64,000 bases of DNA from Parelaphostrongylus tenuis (lineage: Eukaryota; Nematoda; Chromadorea; Rhabditida; Metastrongylidae), in contig JAHQIW010000951.1 of assembly GCA_019055375.1 (NCBI GenBank), positions 28,501-92,500 of the forward strand. The letters run 5' to 3'. Below the pieces are notes generated by a model. The model made no database searches. It worked only from the letters and a program-made list of their open reading frames with translations, and was not told the origin of the DNA. Shown piece after piece: positions 2,411 through 54,991 of this stretch. How positions within the stretch are numbered: position 1 is the stretch's first letter; every line of letters starts with the position of its first letter. Made by a program: the position numbers and the translations under genes.

Positions 2411-5069
2411 TAGTCAGCTTCTTCCAAAACTGATTTGTTCTTTTATGATTCTTCCAGTGGTGATCGAAAACCACCTGCACAGGGACACTGCACATGCATG
2501 GGTTAAGAAAGTGCTTAGCATCAATCAGAACAAAGCAGCTTGAGGTGTGGCACGAGTTACAAAACGCTCCTTCTTCCTGTTGGTTTGGATCTTTCGAAAA
2601 TTATCTAGAGTAGCTCCAGAGTTTCTCGTATGAGTGTTTCAAATTCCCGTGTGATTACATTGACTTCTACCTCGAAGTTTTCTCTGTTATGTGCTCTGTG
2701 CGTGTTTAGTGGAGTGCTTTATTTGACTGTGAATTTTCTAATCAGGTACTCATTTTAGCGAATGCCGGCTAATCCTCTTGTCTCGCTAATAAAATAGTCC
2801 TCACAAACTTTAGGAGAGATTAGTTACACCTAGCCAAATTTATCCTATCCTCTTCTCTACCATTAAACAAATTGTGCGCATTTGCGTTCCGCATAGTCGG
2901 TCATACGATCGGTTACGAACCAGTTGGCTTCTGTACTCGCTGGTTTTTCAATCACTGCTGCCGTCTTTGAAACCGGTCCCTTTCAAGCAACGTTGTGGTT
3001 GTGCCTATTTGATTAAATATGCAGTAGACGACAAGTTTTGCATTTTTTTTGAACGAATATTTCACATTCTTCAAACACTATCTCGGGAAAGACTTTAGCT
3101 CCGCTTCTCAAGAGCGCAAAATGTGGCATGCGGCTGGCTGGAGGGCTAATAAAATCAAAGCTATATCCGAATGGGTGACACGAGTGCAACGGTTTAGAAA
3201 CGCGCGCTCCCGGATAGAGTGAGATGTGAGTTCGAGTCTCAGCTGACATGAAAGTTTTGCACATCACTCTGCATCACTGGGTATATTTGTAATCATAACA
3301 CCAGAAAAAAAACGGTTAATCAAAGATTTCTATTTGATCATTCGGGACAAAAGCTCTTAGGCTATCAGTCGAACAGTTGGTGATGAGAACGGAAAATTTA
3401 CAGTAACGTATTTTTAGATAGATGCTGAGATAACATAGAAGCGTTTTTGGAGATACTTCTCTTTATTGTCCATCAATCAATGCTCAAAAGTCAATGCAGA
3501 AAAACTGAACGAGGGAGCGGGTTAGTGTGGCCAACGCATTTGGGTTTAAATCATCAAATACATCTTAATTTCAAAACTGGAATAACCAACATGTTCTATT
3601 CTTATACTCACTAAAAATTGATCAGTTACTGTCCAATGTTGGTCTTGCGTCTACTGATCCACTATCAATCAAGGATAAGACTAGCTGTGAATTAGCTGTG
3701 AAGACGGAACAATGGATACAATAGCACGGTTTTTGATCCAGGAAGTTACCCAGATGTTGAAACACATCTCACCTCATTTTAAGAACAACCTAATGTGCTT
3801 AAATTGTCTACGTTACAAGCTTCCTAACAGCGCATAACTTTTGACGTTAACGTCTTTCATGCAAATGCGCCGAGTGGCTCCGCAATGCAAGCCATCCGCG
3901 TGCTCCTCAGCGAACACAAAAAACAATGCATATATGGCTTCCAGATAGCTCGACATGTACTTTGCATAAATCAGAGAATTAGCAATAGAACAGGGTTCGG
4001 CCTCACATTGTCATTGCGTCTAAGGTGGAAGATCCATCGATTTTCATCATTACCCTATTGCAGATGTATCGATGATTAATTTGTCATCTACTCCACCTAA
4101 GAGTAGATGGACAATTATTTCCTGATGTTCACCAAATACTCAGATTACATAAAATTTAACCGAGAAAAACCGAAAGGAAATTAGCTTCCATTTTTGACCG
4201 CTCAAGTTGACCTAATCGGAAACATCTCCAATACACAGTGGTACAGAAAACTGTGTAAGACAAGCTTACTAGTTCACTACCTTCTCTCCCACTCGTCACC
4301 CACAAGACGTGCATTGTTCTATAGTTTACAGTTTTTTTTTAATGTGTCAAAACACGAGGTATGTTGAAATTTATTTGAACGGCTAACGCAGACCTTTAGA
4401 AAATCAGGTTGTCTACATTCCAGACTGTCATACACCACCATTATTTGAATCGAAAAATCACCAAATCTAGATCCAAATCGCATTAGGAGCGAAAAAAACG
4501 AACTAAGCACGGTAATAAAACGCTGTTCAAATAGAACCTAACTCATAGAAAACGATGATGAAATACTACTGAATACTCTGAGGCGTTAGATAGTCGCAAC
4601 CACTTTCATGAATGTCTGCGCACAACGAAAAACTTCATGATATTCCGTGACGGTAAAGGCGATGATTACATGAGTATGGGACCAGTTCACTTAGTCTTTT
4701 GAAGCATGTGGCGCCAAATACTCCGGTATGGGTAAGCCACTCGTGTCCATATGAAGGAACACCTAATGGGCGTAATAAAGAGTAAATCGAGCACCCAATT
4801 AAGCACGCATAGGACACAGACACATAATGGGGAAGATTTTGAAGTGGAAGTAGGACCTTACCTCATAGAGCTCTTCAAGCATTGTGGATTATCCGCAAAT
4901 CCAAACACGAACAGCAAGGAGGAATGCCTCGTTATCACGCGTGATCTAACACAGTAATACGGGGTGAGTAAATAAAAAGTTCTGATAATTTTTTCAGATA
5001 CTTTAATTATAAAAACAGACATTCGAATTTAGTCAATTGAAGGAATAACAACGTTCACTAGACCAACAG
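2411..5069. other. No gene seen, apart from SINE at 3170
   Basis: AT-rich with scattered short frames. None shows codon structure or a motif I recognise. Confidence 0.55.
3170..3290 (+). repeat. tRNA-derived SINE, type 3, diverged
   Basis: GTGAGTTCGAGTCTCAGC (B box) at about 3227 followed by AAAGTTTTGCACATCACTCT, matching the type 3 tail. The A box is weak. Confidence 0.5.
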
Positions 5070-6300: not shown

Positions 6301-7894
6301 TATTCACTACGCTAGCAGGGAGTTCATGTTTTTTAATATTATCCTTTTTATTTTTATTTTTATATATTTATCCAAATGTTATATTCTGAATATATGAAAA
6401 TACTTGACTGAGTGAATTGCTTGTCACATAAACCTTTCCAGGTTCTCAAGAAGATGAAACCGACGGTACGTCAACCAATACTGTATCAAATATATCTTTT
6501 GTTAACAACCCTTTCTCTACTCACCAAAGAAATACTGAGTTTTTTGATCTATGCCGAAGTTAACAGAATGTCGGTCTTGGGAATAACGAGCTAATTTTTC
6601 ACATACTTACATTGATAACTCTGTATGAAAAGCAGATCAAATACCTCCGCATACCTGTAATGTGTTAGCTCTTCACTTATAACTTTATAATAGGTCATTA
6701 CTTAATTTTATTATCAATCCATTAGCTTTATAAATGTAAATATCAATGGAAATAACTGTAGTAAACATTTTAGAAAAGTACTGAAAACAAGGTTTACCCC
6801 AAGCCAAGTTATTCAACCTATGCAAAAAGGAACCGTAAACTTTTATTTGTTTTTGCGGAAGCAGAAAAAGAAATATTGGAAGTAAGTTGAGGAATGTCAA
6901 AATTCTTTGCCTTTCGATGAAATTTTCTAGCTACCATAATCTCAGGTAAGTTTTCCTTGGAGCATTTATCTAAATGATACACAGTCATTTTCGTGAGCTT
7001 TTTGGATAGTTTGTGCACTTTGTTCTCTATGGCGCAAATCTGCTTTCAAAGACGAATAGTAGTTTTCTTTGAAAGTTTTTCATGCAACTCGAACATTACT
7101 GGCACTATGCGAACGGCAGCATCTTACTGGCTTTGGCCGGCATTCACTAACAAATCCCTCTCATGTGTCAATGTCATCCTCGCCGTCGTCGTCATCATCG
7201 TTGTTCACTTCGGAATCCATCTTCCATAGGATCATTAGCGTTCGTAATCCTTCATGTACTTCCCGATCGGAGCCCGATGTGGTCAAATCCGTGTGTGTTC
7301 CCGTCCCTTGAAACGCGGCGAACACATGAATGATCGGAGGGGTCGTCATATGTGTTCCCGGAATCAGATTGCGATCTATTATTGTCGACCTTCCCTTCCC
7401 TTCACTGCAACATCACTCGTTTCACTATTGTCATCCGTTCTGTCTGTGAATCTCCACAAATCGGGCGATGATCGTTTCGCATCATCTTCACACCTGTACT
7501 ACCACCGCCATCACCACTCATATCTCTTTCCAGATCTCCATACGGGAACATAATTTATCATGTCATATTCATCTGATCAACGAATTGTACGCAGAGGACA
7601 GTACAATCTGTACTTAATCGGGTATCGAAACCAGAAACTTTCAATTATTCAATTCAAATTGCAACCAGAACAAATAAATGTAAAAGAAAAAAAAAATGCC
7701 GGAAATTATATGTACAGTTTACGCTAAAGAGAAACACGAGCGAAAAAAAAGCATCGTTTACTCTGAAGTTATGGAGGTTGGATAAAAGGCTAGGGAACTC
7801 TTCCTTATTTTGGTACAATCCATTCATCTTCCACAAAGGTCTCCAAACACTTCACATGTTGCATCAACTGCTGCTTGTGGATTTCGCCTTTTTA
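6301..7894. other. No supported gene; slightly GC-richer block at 7030-7550
   Basis: The 7030-7550 block carries overlapping frames on both strands, including an Asp-rich one on - (DDDDDGEDDIDT, from a CATCGTCGTC-like repeat). The mirrored frames argue for simple repeat content rather than coding. Confidence 0.5.
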
Positions 7895-8080
7895 TCATTG
7901 TCGTAGATGCTGTGCGAGACAATTCTCCCTGCAGTCCAGTCCTAAAAGTAGCCGAGCTAAGGCGTTCCTAGGCGTCCAGTTAAATGATTGCAAGAGTGTT
8001 GGGGTAGGGGCTCGAACTAGCGTCTTGCTAATCACTCTGCTTCCTAATGCACTGCATCACTAACCACTGCATTACGCGCC
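7895..8080 (-). repeat. tRNA-derived SINE, type 2, diverged
   Basis: GGCGCGTAATGCAGTGGTTA (A box) and CTAGTTCGAGCCCC (B box) on the - strand, then a body with GGCGTTCCTAGGCG-like sequence (+ strand) in the order of the 29020 copy. Confidence 0.55.
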
Positions 8081-18004: not shown

Positions 18005-18126
18005 TAAGACAATGAACGGTACCTTTCCTTCGAGTGCTTTATTAAGACCACGCTCAAATTTCAATAGATCCTTTCATTATTATTTGAGGCCAACATGTCA
18101 TATGGTCTGGTAAAGGCTCTTGTACA

Positions 18127-18169
18127 GCCCGAGACACGTGTTTCGTCCTTACAGACTCATCAGCCGGGC
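18127..18169 (-). ncRNA. Type I hammerhead ribozyme, second family, complete
   Basis: On the - strand: stem I GCCCGG/TCGGGC (six pairs, one G-U); core CTGATGA; stem II G-TC/GA-C around TGTAAG; GAAA; palindromic stem III ACACGTGT; then C, giving a GUC cleavage triplet. All core bases are present. CTGATGAGTC with GACGAAAC is the textbook hammerhead signature. Confidence 0.9.
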
Positions 18170-18467
18170 AGAACCCGTCGTCTGTCGATCTTTTCATAGT
18201 CAGTTCTCTCGGGAGTGTCACACTCCTTATATATAGTTATCGACGACCTACGCTTTACACTCTATGTCAGGTGAAACATTCCAGGTTATACCAGGTATAA
18301 TATGATAAAATACCAGCCAGCTAGCAATCGAGTGCGAAAACACTCAGTGTTAGGTGAATGTTTCACCTGACAAAGAGTGTAAAGCGTAGGTCGTCGATAA
18401 CTATATATAAGGAGTGTGACGCTCCCGAGAGAACTGACTATGAGAAGATCGACAGACGACGGGTTCT

Positions 18468-18509
18468 GCCCGGCTGATGAGCTGTAAGGACGAAACACGT
18501 GTCTCGGGC
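18468..18509 (+). ncRNA. Hammerhead in right arm of the inverted repeat
   Basis: The + strand copy of the 18127 ribozyme, with stem I, CTGATGA, GAAA and stem III identical. One T is missing from stem II, which weakens that short stem. It may retain reduced activity. Confidence 0.82.
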
Positions 18510-18639
18510 TGTACAAGAGCCTTTACCAGACCACATGACATGTTGGCTCAAATAATAATGAAACAATGAACGGTAGTAAACTATTTCGATGCTAGATAGT
18601 GTTGGATCCCGCACAATAAAATTTGATGAAGAGTCGTGT

Positions 18640-18970
18640 AAAAAAATAAATATATTCATTTAGTCTGTCATGGGCACCTGTGTAATGCAGTGCACGTGTT
18701 TCGGCCTTACAGCCTCATTAGCTGCATAGTATCTTTCGTTTGAGCCAATCCCTCTTCGGGGAGAACCCCCTTAGATAGAGTAGTCATAGACGAACGTTTT
18801 ACACGTGCAATAAGTGATAAAATTTTCGAACGGGCAGTGTTGTACACTCGATTGCTCCTGCCTGGTACCGTCAAATATATCATACCTTTCGTTTCAAGTG
18901 TTTCTTCAAACCACGCTCAAATTTTAATATGCCTGACAGTTGTTTTTGAGCCATGCATGTGGTCAGTTGC
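18640..18970 (-). repeat. Second-family hammerhead repeat, diverged unit
   Basis: Contains GTCTGTCATGGGC, a decayed hammerhead, ACCCCCTTAGATAGAG, ACACTCGATTGCTCCTGCCTGG and the tail CCACGCTCAAATTTTAATAT, then the start of a further unit (GAGCCATGCATGTGGTC). The layout matches the units at 53376 and 62650. Confidence 0.72.
18685..18727 (-). ncRNA. Decayed hammerhead with compensated stem I
   Basis: Stem I is ATGCAG/CTGCAT, fully paired but different in sequence from the 18127 copy. Stem II GGC/GCC and GAAA remain. The core is CTAATGA (G5 to A) and the T closing stem III is C. Probably inactive. Confidence 0.75.
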
Positions 18971-47500: not shown

Positions 47501-50500
47501 CCCATTAAGGTTAGCCGTTATGCTGAAAAAAAAACACTTTTGTGCGAGAAACTATTGAGCAGAGAAGTTTCGTTTTCTTTTACTACATGACCCGATATCT
47601 TGAGCTTTTTTTTGCGCGCTTCCCAGCTCCATTTCCTCATTTCTACTATCAATGAAGATCTTCGAACGTGTTTGCGTGCAATATCGGCTATTGACATTGG
47701 TGGTTTCTCGTCTCCGTCAAGAATGCTTTGAATGCTTGTAGAATTAATGCTCCTTGGAATCGTGATATATGCGTGTTCGAGCATTCCCACGTGAATTGGA
47801 AGAATTGCTCTTATCCCAGACTAGTCTGGTAGCAATTTCCCGACACAGGAAGGATGAGAGGCCTGATTGGCTATCGAGGAGCGCCTGAGCGGCTTGGATC
47901 TTTCAGTAATTAAAGGGATTGCTACCACTGTATTCCCTGCTCCCTAGAAAAGTTCCATAGAGATATAAAAGCATTGAGTGAGAGTAGAAAACGAAAATGT
48001 CATCAAGAAGCAGACTAGGATTGGTGAGAAGGAAAAAAAAATTATTCAGAATATTATATCAAAAGATCGACTGTTTTTGAAACCCCCCAAAAAACATTCA
48101 ATATAATTCCAAAAAAAAGAATGATTTAAGCTCAAAAAAGGGGTTGGTAAGCCCAGGGTCATACACCGGTGTTTCGGAGGTTCGTCCTCCTCATCAGTGA
48201 CCCCCGCCCCACATTCAGCCCTGCATTGAAGCAAGGAGGGTGGCGTATGTGGTGATGGCACAGTGTACTATGACACTGTACCATCACCACCTCTCAGTCG
48301 ATAGATTTTTGCTGTTAGATCAAAACTATATCAAAAGATCGACTGTTTTTGAAACCCCCCAAAAACATTCAATATAATTCCAAAAAAAAGAATGATTTGA
48401 GCTCAAAAAAGGGGTTGGTAAGCCCAGGGTCATACACCGGTGTTTCGGAGGTTCGTCCTCCTCATCAGTGACCCCGCCCCACATTCAGCCCTGCATTGAA
48501 GCAAGGAGGGTGGCGTATGTGGTGATGGCACAGTGTACTATGACACTGTACCATCACCACCTCTCAGTCGATAGATTTTTGCTGTTAGATCAAAGCTATA
48601 TCAAAAGATCGACTGTTTTTGAAACCCCCCAAAAAACATTTAATATAATTCCAAAAAAAAGAATGATTTAAGCTCAAAAAAGGGGTTGGTAAGCCCAGGG
48701 TCATACACCGGTGTTTCGGAGGTTCGTCCTCCTCATCAGTGACCCCCGCCCCACATTCAGCCCTGCATTGAAGCATTCAGAATATGTTTGGACACTTACC
48801 AACCAAAAGGAAAAGTGAGTCATTACTGCCTATGAGCTAGAGCGCTCGGGAGCATTTGATTTGTATTTGTCTCTTGTGCCTCTGTATATCCTAAAGTGAA
48901 GGAGAAATAAGATGATGAAGGGGACTGATGTCGATTGCAAACACTTATTTCTTGTTTTCTTTTCGCGACATGACATTGTGGCAGTTAGTCATTAGTCATT
49001 CGCTTCGCTCTAGCTTGGAAAGTGAACTAAAGGTGTTTTAAGAATGGGAGTGGTGGCAATGACCAATAGGCGTCGCCAATGGCATTGATCTTCAACAGGA
49101 ATTCTGAAGAAACTTTTGGAAATACGTTTTCATAAACGGCAATCGGTCAATATCTCACACAAATATAAGATTTACTTTTGAAATGACTTGTCAGCTTTAT
49201 TCAATACATTATGGCATAGCGAAATTTGAGATGTGATGCGATACTCATAGGTTCGAATACGATTTTGTTCGAACTCATTAAGCTTTACATGGGTCTCAGA
49301 TAGGGCTTCTGTAAGGAACCTGTGTCTGAGGTTAGAAATTGTGCCTTGATCATCGGAATGTTCGCGCAAATCAATCTGAGGGAAAAATTCACTCAATCAT
49401 TTCTAGAGAAATCGAATGCTCAACTCTTTCCTCTCAAGTGATCCTTAATCACAATCTATAGCTGATCTTTTTATTCTTATAATAATGCTCACAAGTGTTT
49501 GATATAGATAAATCCCTGAGAAATTCGCTATGTATTCGGCTTCGTTCGTAATAATGTTGAAGAGACTAGATGCATATATAGCCCTTTCAAAGACTTACGG
49601 TGGACTGCGGTGTCAAGACACTGTTTTTTATACTCCCAGACAACTCGGATACAGCTTTATCGTCACGGATAGATGGAAGATTCGATAAGCCCAAGACGAG
49701 AGACCGAACCGCCAACCATTTTAGGGTGTATTGCAGGGCACCTCCGACAATTTGACATGAACGCTCCTCACCCCTATTATTGTTGTCGATTTTACATCGC
49801 GATCATCAATATATTCATAAGATCATTGCTAGTTAGACAATTATTTATAATTGTCAATCATCTTCGTTCACATTGACAAGAGTCTGACTTTTTAGGGAGA
49901 AAGAACTTCTTTCACGTGAGGAGAATCACGTTGAACAACTTCGCGACAAAGATGCCCATTATACACATCTCGTTGCTCAACTCAAGGTAGTTTATTTATC
50001 CAGAATTAAGATCCGTGAATAGTGGAAACAGAAACGAGTTTGAAGTCTAACACTTATCATTTCGGTTTTCTATACCATCATTATTCAATTTCTAACACAT
50101 ATGTTATATAAAGGACTGACGTCTTTCATACAGGAACGTATTGATGAACTTGAGGCAAAACTTGAAGAAATGGATCAGCGGCGGCTTTCAATCACCAACA
50201 ACGAATTGTCAGAATTGAAGGAAAAGCTAAAGGTAATGCTGAGTTTAATCTCATCCACAGAGCTTATGCTTATACTGAGCTTTAACTAGTCCTTAGATCT
50301 TCTGAATTATTACGTCTCCAACTAAGTTTCCGAACTTGATCCAAAAAATAAAAATTTTTCACAAAGACAAGTTTTTCTTTCACCTACTTTGTGCAGAATT
50401 TTCGTCTTTCATCGCCAGCTCTTCGTTTTTGAACAGAATCGTCACCACTGATGAGAAATGGATCTTCTTCTTGAGCCAGCGTCGTCCAAATCAGTAGTTG

Positions 50501-53500
50501 TCACCAGGTCAACCGCTTAAGGCCAGTCGCGGATCATTTTCTGGGAGCGAAGTGGGCCGATTCATTGGGACTTGTTGCAAGCTGGTCAGGCCCTGCAACG
50601 CTGAGCGATATTGTCAGCAACTGGACCGTTTCGATCAAGCAATTCCACGTCACCACGGTCGCCAAATCATTTTGCTTCAAGGCAATGCAAAGCCACATGT
50701 TGCCAAGGAAACAGGGAAGAAGTTGACCGATTTGGGCTGGAAGCACTGGATCATCCACCGTATTTCGCCAGATCTGTCCCTCCGTTCTCCGATTTCCATC
50801 TCAAGTCATTTGCGTCGATAATTGACTGGCTGGTTTGCACCAAAGAATAATGAGTTTTATAAACGCGGATTTGATTTGTTGCCCCAGCGTTAACAGAATC
50901 CATTCAAGCAGACGGAACATACTTCAATTAATGTGAACTGATGCTTTCTATTACTTAGTAAAATCAATTTTTGAATTTTTCAAGTCACGTTCGAAACTTA
51001 GTTGGAGGCCAAATAGTTTAAAATTGATTACGACTTACGTATAACCTCGTATAATCTGAACACAGACAGTTCAGATTCAGTACCGCAACTAATTTCCATT
51101 GAACCTTTTCTACAATGAAAATTAATTTGATATCAGATGAGAATTGTAACTTTAGGACAAAATGGAGAAGCGCGATGAGGGTTTGGCATATAAACCCGGC
51201 GGTGAGCTTCCACACGAAGATAAAGCTGTGATGGCAAATATGGACGCCAAAGAACTGAAAGCAACCACCATCAACAACAACCATATTACGGTGAGAGATT
51301 CTGACGAGATCACTGATATTTCAATTCTCATCTGTAGTCAGAACTAGTTGATGGAATTGGTAATTCGTTATTTTCACTGATTTTCCAACAGAATTATGGT
51401 GTGTATAAGTGTAAATTTATGAGTACTGAGTGGTGTACAAAACATCCGACATCAGGCAGGCGTTGAACTGCGTTTCACCCATATGGGGTTGGGCGGTGCA
51501 ACCATTGCACCACAACCACGACACTCTCATATTATATATTATATATATATATACAGATAAAATATATAGTAGCCTCTTTGTGCAGTATTCTTAACAAGGA
51601 GATCCGCAGAGCTTCGACTACTCTCTTGCACTCTTTTCGGGCTTGCTTCTTATAAATTCTGAATGGGCACATACCTTCCTGATCAGCTATGTCTTTTTTA
51701 TACGCTTTAAATGAAATCCATGAGACTTTATATGCTCAAAAGTACACATTGCCATTATTGCTATGAAAGTTCTACACAGGGGAGAAAAGGAGGAGAGGTG
51801 TAAAAAAGATATCCTTTGGTTTCGCCTCCAAAAATCGAAAACATGTTTAGGTTTATCGAAGAAAAAATGACAGCGAACGCCTTCCCTCAGGGTTGCGAGA
51901 CTCGTCAGAAAACATTATATCATGAAATTGCCTTTATATGCTTTTTTGCCTATTACTATGCTTTGAAGTATACTACAGAGTCGTAAAGACGCTGAAGTCT
52001 CAACATGGGATGACGACAAATACTCATCCTCTTGCGGCAGTCCTGTTCCGAGGATATCTGAACCGGCTAGTCCAGCACTTCCGCACAAATTCGTCCATCG
52101 ACGTCTGTTGTTTCCACTCAAAAAGAAATATGCGACGAGTAAGCGATTTTACTGAACTTTTCCACTCGTAACTTTTTATGGTCCTTAATGTCATTTTTCC
52201 CTCAAAATTCTATATCCAACCTTTCTTTTTGGAGCACCTAGCGCAGCGCACTGCGCGTCCTTGCTCGTCCATACGTTATTAATTCCATCTTGATCAAAGC
52301 AAAAATTGATTATTTATTTCTCCCTTGTCCATAGAGTAGTATGAACTTCGTTTACGTGCAAAAGAACCCAACTCATCGAGCTAACTTCATCTATCATTCA
52401 GTCAAGCCAGTGAGTGATGAGTAACTCTTTCTAATATTCAGATGAAAACGAATTCTGGCGTGCATCTTGTGAGCAAATCCAAGGATTGCAAGTGTTACAC
52501 TGGACGATAGACGACGTTTGCCAGTTGTTAGTGTCAATGGGACTCGACAAATATGTGCCCGAATTCACCATTAACAAAATTAGCGGCGCCAAATTTCTGG
52601 ACTTGGACGGCACTAAGCTGAAGGTAAGATGAAGTTATGTGAGAAGACGGGGTAAGGGTATTATATTCTCGAGAAGGCAAGCGTTTGTGAACTTTTTTGG
52701 ATTATCAAAGAAGTGCTTACCACTTTGCTTGAAACTTTCCATTCTTCAGGTGTTTTTTGAATTGGCCCGATAAGAGAAATTTTTTGAATGCACGAATTTT
52801 AACCCTACAGTTCACTTTCAAATTTGCCAATTTTTTATGCTTGAACACTAACAATTCTTTACTTGAGTGCTATATTCCTAGAGTCGAACCAAATAACTAC
52901 TGATATTTTTTCGTCCACCGACATTGTGTTTGTCGACTTACCAAATAAATAAATGAGTTTTTCCATTTGAAAAAAGATTTTGTACTAAACGTTTTTGTAC
53001 CTTGTCAATTCTGTCTTTGAAAAAGTATTCAGAACTTCAATTCCCTGTCTTTCGAAGTAATAATCAATAGAGATGACTAGTAGCTGAGTTTTATCACCAC
53101 TTAGCTGTAGTTACTGATATCCAGTATACTGAGTGACATGCAAAGCTTTGAGCATCTGGCGTGAGTTGAACCCGCCCTTTACCCATACTGAAGTCGCTTC
53201 CTACAACTACACCCCGAAATTGTTGATCTGCTATCACTCGTTCTGCGCTATGAGACATCGAAGCTGTCATGAACGATCTTGTCAAGAGGTTTGGTCTGGT
53301 AAGCACACATAGGCAAAACCTATTAACTTGGCAGATATTGAATATGTTTAGTATATAGCAATTCTTCATCTCATAAGGTCTGCTATGGGCTCTTGTACAG
53401 CTCGATTCACGTCTTGCGGCCTTGCAGCATCGTCAACCGGGCAGGCCCTTCGTCTTTAGCCAATTCTCTTAGGGCTTCTACATCTTCCTATAGAGAGTAA

Positions 53501-54991
53501 GCGACGACGAACGATTTACACAACGCCGTCAAGTGAGAAATCACTAGATTGCAATTTTCGACATTCGATTGCTCTTGGCTGGTATTTTTGAGTTATTATG
53601 CCGTTTATTTCGAGTGTTTTCTTAAGTTCACGCTTGAAATTAAACATATCCGTGATTATTATCTGAGCCAACATGTCATGTGGATTTTTTATGGACTCTT
53701 GTGCAGCCCGATACACGTTTTCCAGCCTTGCAGCCTCATGAGTCGGGCACGACATATTTAATTTTGCGCGTGGTCTTAAGAAAACACTCAACTTATCAAT
53801 TCTTTATCTCACTACATTTAGCCATGTTATGATATCTAAATTATACAGCTAATTCTAGTAGATTATACGCATCCAATCGCTGCCAGCTCAATTGGGTCCC
53901 TTGTGGTGTAATAGTAGCATGCGCCTTTAGTATGAGTGAGACGCGGGTTCGACTCCTGCCTGATGTTCATAGCTTTGCATATCATTCAGAATTTTATATA
54001 GTGATATCATAACACTGTTATAAATATGATAAAATAATAAATCCCAAGGTTCTTTTCCGTTATACGCCGACAAATGATTATTCGACCCTATTTGCTGGAC
54101 AGGAGCTTCTCGTAAGAATGATAGTTCATTCCAAAGCTCAAATCTGTAGCTGGCGCGGTACTTGGGCGGTTTTCTGAAGTACCCTTCCATAGAAACAATT
54201 ATGCATTACATCGGCTGAGCAGTTCAACTGTTACCTTGCTGGGAGCACGAAAAGCACATGAATGTGTGGAAAAAATCTTTCAGTATCAGAGCCAGGCGTT
54301 TAATATAGAGTTTCTTCAAGTGCGAAGAAAAAATTTCTAATCGAATGACAAAAATCGCACTTTTCATAAGACGTGAATACGTATACCGATCGATCGGTGG
54401 CGGGATGCCGCATCGAATCTATAGCGATCACACACCCTGGCCGTAGATTAACCGATAAAGAGACACTCCAAAGTTGTGAAATTTGACATTCAGTTCTCTG
54501 CTGCACTACAGAAAAACGGTCTTTCCCGAAAATAAGCACACCATTGGATTCACTAAATCTTACTCTTACTGATAGTCTAAAGAGAAGGCTCTGTGTTGCG
54601 AGGAAACGCGTGTGTGAAACACAATTTTTTCCTTTCGATGAAGTGTTATGATAGAGACTTTTTTGAAAGACGGCCACATAGCGCTCAGACAGAGATATAA
54701 GCTTTCGAATAATTAGCAACACTTCTGAAAAGTTCTTGTCTAACGAACGGGATCGTTTTTTTCATTTGTCGCCGTTTAACGGAAAAGTTCCCTTCTAATG
54801 AATATTGACATAGTTTGTGATCAGATATGTTTCCGTTTCAGACTATGGGGATTCAAAATCACTCTGATCGTTCATTGATCAAGAAAAAAGTGAAAATGAT
54901 CAAGAATCGAATAGAACGAGAACGTAAAGTGCTGGAAAAACAGAGTCGATCACGTGTAATCGCAGCACAAGGAATGCATATGCAAATGTAG
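35412..54991 (+). CDS. nab-1: Neurabin (NAB-1 type) scaffold, 16 exons, 766 aa
   Basis: Neurabin/spinophilin proteins bind F-actin and protein phosphatase 1 (PP1) and organise synapses and cell polarity. Exons read: 35412-35504, 36184-36300, 38690-38769, 40616-40789, 43609-43945, 44792-44954, 45103-45184, 45761-45885, 46298-46458, 47327-47478, 49896-49986, 50134-50232, 51156-51290, 51979-52138, 52442-52623, 54842-54991. They sum to 2301 nt, phases match at all 15 junctions, and TAG ends the frame. In order: N-terminal region (1-155), acidic linker (about 205-235), PP1 docking KVSF (258-261), PDZ (about 305-391), coiled coil (about 444-560), linker, SAM (about 674-740). A SAM domain marks neurabin rather than spinophilin. 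The order and the stretch after the docking motif fit neurabins closely. Family call is very sure; exon 2's end and the first exon are the least certain parts. Confidence 0.95.
36184..36300 (+). other. nab-1: Neurabin exon 2, proline/glutamine-rich, apparent GC donor
   Basis: Acceptor TTTTTTTCAG ends at 36183. The exon encodes 39 residues rich in P, Q and S, with a polyproline-like LPPKP. In frame, the best donor is CAG|GCAAGA at 36300/36301, a GC-AG intron. A GT donor 24 bases further on (TAT|GTTTCC at 36324) also keeps phase 0 but matches the consensus poorly. The next exon (38690) starts in phase 0, so phase does not decide between them. Confidence 0.6.
38690..40789 (+). other. nab-1: Neurabin exons 3 and 4 (N-terminal region)
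   Basis: Exon 3 (38690-38769) encodes [16 protein letters not shown] and following residues and ends in phase 2 before GTGGGT. Exon 4 (40616-40789) starts after ATTTTAG. The split codon AA+A gives Lys97, and the exon continues through a Tyr/Arg-rich stretch ([18 protein letters not shown]) to a phase-2 donor, ACG|GTCGGT. By position these residues (71-155) lie in the part of neurabins that includes the F-actin-binding region; no motif defines that region here, so its role is inferred. Confidence 0.75.
40790..43608 (+). other. Largest neurabin intron (2.8 kb)
   Basis: Includes an AAGT microsatellite at 41975-42003 and an open frame at 41384-41668 whose second half looks codon-like. That frame cannot be spliced into neurabin with matching phases using the donors and acceptors present, so it is not included as an exon. 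Confidence 0.6.
43609..43945 (+). other. nab-1: Neurabin exon 5: acidic linker and PP1-docking motif
   Basis: This 337-nt exon is the largest. It carries a run of Asp/Glu/Asn with interspersed Gly (about residues 205-235), including [12 protein letters not shown]. It then gives [13 protein letters not shown] at its 3' end (residues 255-267). KVSF is an RVxF-type site by which neurabins bind the PP1 catalytic subunit, and the STAPI that follows is a neurabin signature. The donor CCA|GTTAGT lies just after. The exon starts after TTCTAG at 43608 with a split Arg155 codon. Confidence 0.92.
44792..45885 (+). other. nab-1: Neurabin PDZ domain, exons 6-8
   Basis: Three exons (44792-44954, 45103-45184, 45761-45885) encode residues 268-391. 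The first begins [19 protein letters not shown], the conserved neurabin lead-in to the PDZ. The PDZ starts near Phe305. Its carboxylate-binding loop is GLGVSI (315-320), followed by [18 protein letters not shown], then [15 protein letters not shown] and RVLFTIG. The two internal introns split a Gly codon and an Arg codon. In neurabins this PDZ binds C-terminal tails of partners such as p70 S6 kinase; the ligand in this worm is unknown. Confidence 0.95.
46775..47095 (-). repeat. tRNA-derived SINE, type 1, in a neurabin intron
   Basis: Head on the - strand GGAGCGCGTATGGCACAAGT, B box TAGCTCGATCCCGCGC, then the shared body ending GCATTCATTCACCTCAAACG. It is inverted relative to neurabin, between exons 9 and 10. 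Confidence 0.72.
48156..48203 (-). ncRNA. Type I hammerhead ribozyme, array copy 1
   Basis: On the - strand: stem I GGGTCA pairs with TGACCC; core CTGATGA; stem II GGAGG/CCTCC with loop ACGAA; core GAAA; a palindromic stem III region ACACCGGTGT; then A, the predicted cleavage position, before the second strand of stem I. Every base of the conserved hammerhead core is present, so self-cleavage is expected. Confidence 0.9.
48427..48474 (-). ncRNA. Type I hammerhead ribozyme, array copy 2
   Basis: All 48 bases match copy 1, at 271 bases distance. The flanking C run is one base shorter (CCCC rather than CCCCC), outside the minimal ribozyme. Confidence 0.9.
48698..48745 (-). ncRNA. Type I hammerhead ribozyme, array copy 3
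   Basis: Matches copies 1 and 2 over the 48-base minimal motif. The array stops 29 bases beyond it on the + strand, which is the 5' side of the - strand RNA, so a transcript of the inserted multimer would begin shortly before this ribozyme. Confidence 0.9.
49565..49745 (-). repeat. tRNA-derived SINE, type 1, remnant
   Basis: GGCGGTTCGGTCTCTCG on the - strand near 49700 is a B-box remnant. The body is short and diverged. Family assignment rests on the head and the GGATAGATGGAAGATTCG block. Confidence 0.45.
50395..50950 (+). pseudogene. Mariner transposase relic in a neurabin intron
   Basis: The C-terminal half of a mariner (DD34D) transposase is readable. TTDEKWIFF (first catalytic Asp) is at about 50438, followed by GQPLKASRG and [33 protein letters not shown] follows, where the usual DNARPH has Gly for the second Asp. 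Then LGWKHWI and, in a shifted frame, [11 protein letters not shown] and [15 protein letters not shown] stop after the first motif, frameshifts and the lost Asp make it inactive. No inverted termini were identified. Confidence 0.88.
51420..51530 (-). repeat. tRNA-derived SINE, type 3
   Basis: On the - strand GTCGTGGTTGTGGTGCAATG and GCAGTTCAACGCCTGCC. It lies between neurabin exons 13 and 14. Confidence 0.52.
53130..53230 (-). repeat. tRNA-derived SINE, type 3
   Basis: On the - strand CGGGGTGTAGTTGTAGGA and GGCGGGTTCAACTCACGCC, then the shared AAAGCTTTGCATGTCACTCA. Confidence 0.58.
53376..53765 (-). repeat. Second-family repeat, 306-bp direct dimer with two hammerhead remnants
   Basis: Corresponding points (GTACAGCTCGAT at 53395 and GTGCAGCCCGAT at 53701) are 306 bases apart, giving the unit length. 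The first remnant (53400-53442) has a TTGACGA core. The second (53706-53748) keeps stem I GCCCGA/TCGGGC perfectly but has a CTCATGA core. It lies in the last intron of neurabin, antisense. Confidence 0.75.
53895..53985 (+). repeat. tRNA-derived SINE, type 3
   Basis: TTGTGGTGTAATAGTAGCAT and GACGCGGGTTCGACTCCTGC give intact A and B boxes. No acceptor-stem complement follows, and the downstream GCTTTGCATATCATTC is shared with the inverted copy at 53130. Confidence 0.6.
54300..54745. repeat. Interspersed repeat, unknown family (also 58590-59180)
   Basis: The blocks CACTACAGAAAAACGGTCT, AAAATAAGCACACCATTGG and GATAGTCTAAAGAGAAGG recur in changed form at 59000-59090. The second site also holds ATTCGATAGC twice, a motif shared with the arms of the 15831 MITE, so these may be related non-autonomous elements. 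The starting piece CGAAGAAAAAATTTCTAAT recurs at 13272. Confidence 0.5.

Follow-up and report, generated by a model that had tools for sequence, protein, structure and literature searches.

A Hammerhead-Bearing Tandem Repeat with Penelope-like Insertion Ends in a Nematode Genome

The hammerhead array and its flanks

The window (the whole 64,000-nucleotide stretch of DNA analyzed here) contains one tandem array, placed by Tandem Repeats Finder at 48055-48775 with a period of 271, 2.7 copies and 98% matches (Table 1). A preliminary description had read this region as three near-identical 271-bp units, each with a type I hammerhead ribozyme on the minus strand, and this is borne out by repeat finding, pattern search and folding: the hammerhead cores start at 48172, 48443 and 48714, i.e., at the exact 271-base spacing that had been claimed, and the stems are likewise as described, with a 6-bp stem I (GGGTCA/TGACCC), a 5-bp stem II (GGAGG/CCTCC) and a palindromic stem III. 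The stem III segment, ACACCGGTGT, leaves hardly any space for a loop. The pattern CTGANGAG-N4-25-CGAAA has five matches in the window against 0.26 expected, a number reached in 0 of 100 shuffles; three fall in the 271-bp array and two in a second hammerhead element. The covariance search that the preliminary description had proposed did not lend its support, as RF00163 is without a match to the array copies either at the gathering score or at E<=5; its matches in the window are to the second hammerhead element alone, at 34.9 bits against a cut-off of 34.

Table 1. Positions of the features discussed, counted from the first base of the window
Feature	Position	Strand	Remark
Probable retrozyme array, 2.7 units of 270-271 bp	48055..48774	sense = -	one-armed insertion
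Array ends	3' end 48055; 5' end 48774	-	3' end = site B, ~+105 after ribozyme cut
Hammerhead copy	48156..48203	-	predicted cut between 48162 and 48161
Hammerhead copy	48427..48474	-	predicted cut between 48433 and 48432
Hammerhead copy	48698..48745	-	predicted cut between 48704 and 48703
Site A motif AATTATATT	48371..48379 (middle unit); further copies 48100-48108, 48642-48650	-	insertion end at other loci
Site B motif CTTTTGATATA	48055..48065; internal copies 48327-48337, 48597-48607	-	48055..48065 is the 3' end of the window insertion
Left TSD copy ATTCAGAATAT, 11 bp	48044..48054		abuts array exactly
Right TSD copy ATTCAGAATAT, 11 bp	48775..48785		abuts array exactly
Second hammerhead element, ~320-nt unit	18022..18562		two-armed head-to-head; cores 18141-18163 (-), 18474-18495 (+)
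13-bp TSDs of second element, ACAATGAACGGTA	18009-18021 and 18563-18575		
Decayed PLE, arm with RT and GIY-YIG similarity	3837..4954	+	tblastn of L074 protein
Decayed PLE, opposite arm, C-terminal similarity	2608..2995	-	tblastn of L074 protein; head-to-head with the 3837-4954 arm

Folding of the whole 271-nt unit beats shuffled sequences (z -5.4), and two copies of the motif, cofolded, are predicted to form a double hammerhead at -48.3 kcal/mol (one copy: -16.4), in which they share a stem III of 10 bp; a tandem transcript would provide the partner copy that such a double hammerhead takes. Every unit additionally carries a near-perfect 18-bp hairpin (+143-186, where +1 is the first base after the ribozyme cut; e.g., window 48249-48290), lying outside both the hammerhead and the domain of the end sites A and B considered below. 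Weak matches of the array to microRNA families in Rfam, all far below gathering scores, were set aside as chance products of this hairpin.

The array is made of tandem units without a flanking LTR, the unit has a G+C of 0.45, and any stop-to-stop frames overlapping the array are shorter than 110 aa. Both edges of the window copy fall within a unit, away from the ribozyme cut, and are abutted by target-site duplications (TSDs).

The second hammerhead element has at least 51 genome matches (best 40 of 1668 candidates scored). Among the matches listed, reading by eye found opposite-strand neighbors on 11 contigs, all in minus-plus order, and direct tandems ~320 bp apart on two contigs. Both ends could be read in two composites, where they lie at +59 and +111 (window) and at +62 and +110 (L069). 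Window 18683-18735 on the minus strand holds a degenerate hammerhead-like copy, with CTAATGA for CTGATGA, which by eye is probably an older relative of this element; 53367-53455 and 53655-53749, also on the minus strand, are older fragments 79-81% identical to it.

Dispersal and two-armed insertions

A one-unit DNA search of the 481.5-Mb assembly places at least 269 matches to the 271-nt repeat on at least 40 contigs (best 40 of 1191 candidates scored), with those listed being 97-100% identical. Loci were examined on 27 of the 39 other contigs listed, 12 contigs being left out; these 27 loci and the window give 28 independent classified arrays after removal of one duplicate (L054, which is the same insertion as L042). 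Three arrays, L062 (left edge at the contig start), L065 and L066 (arms cut at the stretch edge), enter the polarity count and are left out of the end counts, a second L048 array (7681-8000), cut by the stretch end, is left out of the classification, and the fragments L048:255-398, L048:6171-6354 and L055:946-1002 serve the comparison of hammerheads in old copies alone. By core and stems the hammerhead is intact in 130 of 135 full units, with two of the five failures being units edge-trimmed by the search, and older copies, about 78% identical, retain most of the hammerhead core. The fragment L048:255-398 (minus strand, ~79% identical) has a paired change in stem I, from GTCA/TGAC to GCCA/TGGC, but has lost C3 of the core.

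TSDs of 7-16 bp were found in 23 of the 25 arrays testable at both edges (median 12 bp over 22 TSDs), L048 and L051 being the two with none; for L046, L053, L055 and L056 a script located the TSDs that had initially been recognized by eye, and the 7-bp TSD of L044 is wholly accounted for by microhomology. Empty sites could be recovered for two of three loci tried. That of L045 is C4404, where the joined flanks match at 98% with a single TSD copy, while the joined flanks of the two-armed L061 match nine related insertion-free places unbroken, at 80-94%; for the window insertion no empty allele was found in the genome.

The dominant architecture is two-armed: 20 of the 28 classified arrays have a minus arm followed by a plus arm, i.e., they are head-to-head with 5' ends facing and 3' ends outward, and there is no convergent array among the 28. 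One of them, L062 (G000:C1459:1-8322), is a two-armed array of at least 8.3 kb at a contig start, with approximately 13 and 16 full units in its arms. In 17 of the two-armed insertions the ends and the TSD could be determined, and there the outer 3' ends gather at two places in the unit, A (+48-66) and B (+99-116). Twelve of these insertions pair A with B and none pairs A with A or B with B; the remaining five join A or B to some other position (L043 104/37, L044 61/37, L046 11/99, L049 84/62 and L057 66/35). When ends are permuted among the 17 insertions, 6.83 same-site pairs are expected versus the 0 observed (p=0.00017). The TSD-less L048 has a possible 16-nt second arm that would make a B+B pair, and with it added there is one same-site pair versus 7.26 expected (p=0.001). 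One-armed arrays end at the same sites, with B in the window, L045 and L067, and A in L041a, L047 and L059.

The 34 inner ends are scattered over the unit and are not equal between the two arms, and 23 lie in its AT-rich first 101 nt (non-uniform, p=0.001, in a set with two values assigned by eye). The ribozyme cut is read through in every multi-unit arm, and the inner ends of L041b and L058 read through it as well. Neither poly-A nor a single fixed 3' end is seen at the insertions. Judged by the positions of the ends, the paired A/B outer ends are the "tail" signature of Penelope-like elements (PLEs).

Penelope-like elements and the shared A/B domain

PLEs are abundant in this genome, which has at least 150 GIY-YIG matches (1723 candidates), with open frames up to 902 aa among the matches listed and at least 10 of those having a frame of 700 aa or more. 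GIY-YIG by itself does not prove a PLE. Among the matches listed, neighboring GIY-YIG pairs within 6 kb comprise 20 minus-plus, 0 plus-minus, 1 minus-minus and 1 plus-plus. One locus, L074, is a full PLE: it has a 902-aa frame, of which an 884-aa query matches RVT_1 (6e-11) and GIY-YIG (1.4e-7), and it is bounded by 300-bp identical terminal repeats, with a 14-bp flanking repeat seen by eye. L074 has the open reading frame with RT and GIY-YIG that marks an autonomous PLE, and the 271-bp array has none. The 68 relatives of the PLE protein of this genome are, where named, mostly from Necator, Ancylostoma, Haemonchus, Nippostrongylus and Angiostrongylus, with one from Gnathostoma at 35%. The window itself holds a decayed PLE with two opposed arms (Table 1).

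Five PLE pairs were read at both ends, and in these one arm ends at +55, 56, 58, 62 or 66 and the other at +104, 105, 107, 108 or 120. They were picked since one B end of each was already in the pLTR search, which is unfit to show the distribution of A/B ends because only the best 40 of its 2949 candidates were scored. The pair C4780 has no clear TSD, and C360 has one of 8 bp. The numbering of these ends assumes a cut position in a hammerhead-like stretch of the L074 family, CTGAAGAAGGC...GCCGAAACGTC, recognized by eye and without an Rfam match at E<=1; from its sequence this hammerhead appears degenerate and its activity doubtful.

The retrozyme unit and the PLE are alike in the region that holds the end sites. 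Retrozyme +51-140 and PLE +56-143 are identical in 61 of 92 columns, with a score of 67.5 versus a maximum of 55.5 in 5000 shuffles for this stretch, which was selected after the match had been seen; in the whole-region test the score was reached in 16 of 2000 shuffles, and with other gap costs in 0 of 1000. Both carry the 12-nt AATTATATTGAA at site A (retrozyme +53-64, PLE +58-69). Around B lies a stem that reads CAGTCGAT/ATCGACTG in the retrozyme and CAGTCGG/CCGATTG in the PLE, where an A-U to G-C change appears on both sides. Hairpins at A and B are only partly supported by folding models: the retrozyme unit gives hairpin B a probability of 0.82-0.97 and hairpin A 0.33; the PLE gives hairpin A 0.88-1.00 and hairpin B 0.25-0.36; and the second hammerhead family, folded as the native L069 stretch, gives 0.92-1.00 for A and 0.50-0.55 for B, a mutated copy having given 0. 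The A/B region of this second family has no convincing likeness to the PLE L074 (45 of 1000 shuffles) or to the 271-nt unit (67 of 1000), and its partner may accordingly be another PLE family.

The distances from the cut to the two sites are similar throughout: +48-66 and +99-116 in the 271-nt family, +59-62 and +110-111 in the second family, and +55-66 and +104-120 in the L074 PLE family. In the Anolis PLE the reported cut is at +26, and the main start lies at +111-118 of the ORF (PMC11167929); subtraction puts this start 85-92 after the cut. With the PLE cut site in the present genome taken as assumed, this agreement across families suggests a fixed layout.

Mechanism, alternatives and known systems

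These observations give substance to what the preliminary description had proposed. Its "retrozyme-like" reading is supported: the tandem units are short and non-coding, carry a type I hammerhead, are dispersed and flanked by TSDs, and have empty sites for two of three loci tried; the compact satellite that it had set against this reading is not what was found. It did not extend to the TSDs of the array, nor to the PLE-type two-armed insertions that are the chief result here. Its reading of the host as a nematode likewise holds, given tandem genes with the SL1 leader GGTTTAATTACCCAAGTTTGAG (by eye, L039) and a PLE protein closest to strongylid proteins, and the host is taken to be a strongylid. 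L039 (G000:C3131) is a run of tandem 568-bp repeats, each with an SL1 gene, which RF00198 scores at 47 bits, below its cut-off of 75.

The array is very probably a non-autonomous non-LTR retrozyme that is mobilized by PLE machinery via priming at A and B. The structure of the insertions points to this machinery by two independent routes, namely the end sites and the sequence homology. Transcription, self-cleavage and circularization of the retrozyme, the identity of the enzyme, and the origin of both ends from one RNA molecule are inferred. Hammerheads would cleave a transcript of 271-nt units and the product would close into a circle, with each unit retaining a PLE-derived domain of ~90 nt that would hold two internal RT start sites, A and B. 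The PLE enzyme would cut AT-rich DNA with a stagger, giving rise to duplications of ~12 bp, after which one DNA 3' end may prime at A and the other at B. Each primed end would be extended round the RNA, often for several laps, and the joining of the two copies would yield head-to-head arms with their 3' ends outward; priming by a single end would instead leave a one-armed array, as in the window.

Rare variants in the units bear on the template. All 4 full units of L061 (one in the minus arm, three in the plus arm) carry A206G, against 1 of 131 units elsewhere, and C180T is carried by 12 of 13 units in the minus arm of L062 and 10 of 16 in its plus arm, versus 1 of 106 others; such variants common to both arms fit one RNA for both. 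However, the units of L062 are mixed for two variants inside both arms and L043 has A206G in the plus arm alone, neither of which is predicted by a single pure circle. On balance, the circle is held to be the likely template, with the shared variants speaking for it and the mixed units and one-arm variant against.

The same PLE mechanism might also operate, with no circle at all, on linear RNA, i.e., on a multimeric transcript of a genomic array that stays uncut, and this we consider rather unlikely. The mixed units of L062 would suit it, and the units of most arrays are so alike that a homogeneous multimer would have the appearance of a circle. The Anolis PLE, moreover, takes unprocessed RNA as its dominant substrate in vitro, its hammerhead mutants still insert and no reads start or end at the cut (PMC11167929), so that insertion need not depend on either ribozyme or circle. 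Yet the two arms of L062 would require transcripts with many uncut hammerheads, and a variant as rare as A206G occupies all full units of both L061 arms. Returning to the circle, it can tentatively be suggested that a PLE dimer docks both target ends at the hairpin loops A and B of one hammerhead-made circle, from which bidirectional rolling-circle reverse transcription would proceed. Were this true, the recurrence of one layout of cut, A (~+48-69) and B (~+99-120) in a PLE and two retrozyme families would imply that the hammerhead sets the distance of the sites on the processed RNA, and this placing of the sites would give the PLE hammerhead a role.

Mobilization by a LINE, through ordinary target-primed reverse transcription with occasional twin priming (5' inversion), is improbable. 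Twin priming does fit head-to-head arms, outward 3' ends and TSDs of ~12 bp. LINEs were also named, together with PLEs, as candidates by Cervera and de la Pena (PMC7229834). Against a LINE stand the choice between two internal 3' ends that lie ~45 nt from each other, with one to each arm, which is the PLE tail signature (PMC3846280, PMC11167929), the A/B domain that retrozyme and PLE, the elements compared, have in common, and the lack of poly-A or a single fixed 3' end. About as improbable is a fold-back origin of the inverted arms, through self-priming on an antisense template, which had been put forward for rotifer Penelopes on account of palindromes at their inverted junctions (PMC3846280): it predicts equal outer ends and mirror-image inner ends, whereas the outer ends differ and the inner ends are spread and unequal between the arms, and it was rejected as the main route. 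Ordinary satellite DNA with a chance hammerhead-like motif, which would account for tandem near-identical units and for the motif being missed by Rfam, was already disfavored by the empty sites at two loci and is exceedingly improbable in view of the spread over at least 40 contigs, the TSDs, the two-armed structure, and the old copies that keep most of the core or, as at L048:255-398, a paired stem I change though C3 is lost, the long arrays at few places without TSDs that characterize satellites not being seen for this repeat.

Earlier work had established that animal retrozymes are expressed as ribozyme circles; for the enzyme returning them to the genome, PLEs had been named just as a strong candidate (PMC7229834). 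The reading preferred here, a retrozyme copied by PLE machinery, suggests how animal ribozyme repeats get copied back into DNA. The puzzling head-to-head arms and one-sided tail of Penelope would find a simple explanation too, namely that two DNA ends are each primed at a different site on one RNA. None of retrozymes, PLE tails and internal initiation is new in itself; in the open-licence literature surveyed neither a nematode retrozyme nor the PLE end signature on a retrozyme was found, and an earlier description may exist elsewhere.

The metazoan non-LTR retrozymes are 170-400-nt non-coding tandem units with a type I hammerhead, a TSD of >4 bp and a G+C of <50% (PMC7229834). The present element resembles them in unit size, hammerhead, TSD, G+C and the occurrence of PLEs in the same genome. 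It differs in its host, nematodes being absent from the main text of that study, and in its two-armed head-to-head insertions, paired A/B ends and PLE-shared domain, which are not among the features described there (PMC7229834). A parallel might equally be struck with the GIY-YIG PLEs themselves. In rotifer Penelopes an inverted pLTR lies next to direct pLTRs, the TSDs measure 8-10 bp, and one of the inverted pLTRs may carry a 31-bp tail (PMC3846280). The Anolis PLE protein, once purified, cleaves both DNA strands and initiates reverse transcription at a pair of neighboring internal sites, with the genomic tail being the stretch between these (PMC11167929). The retrozyme shares with them the head-to-head arms, one-arm tail, TSD near 10 bp and AT-rich targets, as well as a hammerhead upstream of two internal start sites (PMC3846280, PMC11167929); unlike them, it has no ORF, its whole unit is 271 nt and an insertion comprises many laps. 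With the dimer-requiring hammerheads of newt and axolotl (PMC7229834, PMC7761336) it has in common a near-loopless stem III and, as predicted by folding, a favored dimer cofold. Its sequence and host are different from theirs.

Finally, this arrangement recalls the sharing of tails between SINEs and LINEs, where the 3' recognition domain of an autonomous element is retained by its non-autonomous partner. The retrozyme departs from it in that the domain is internal, follows the ribozyme cut and would hold two start sites.
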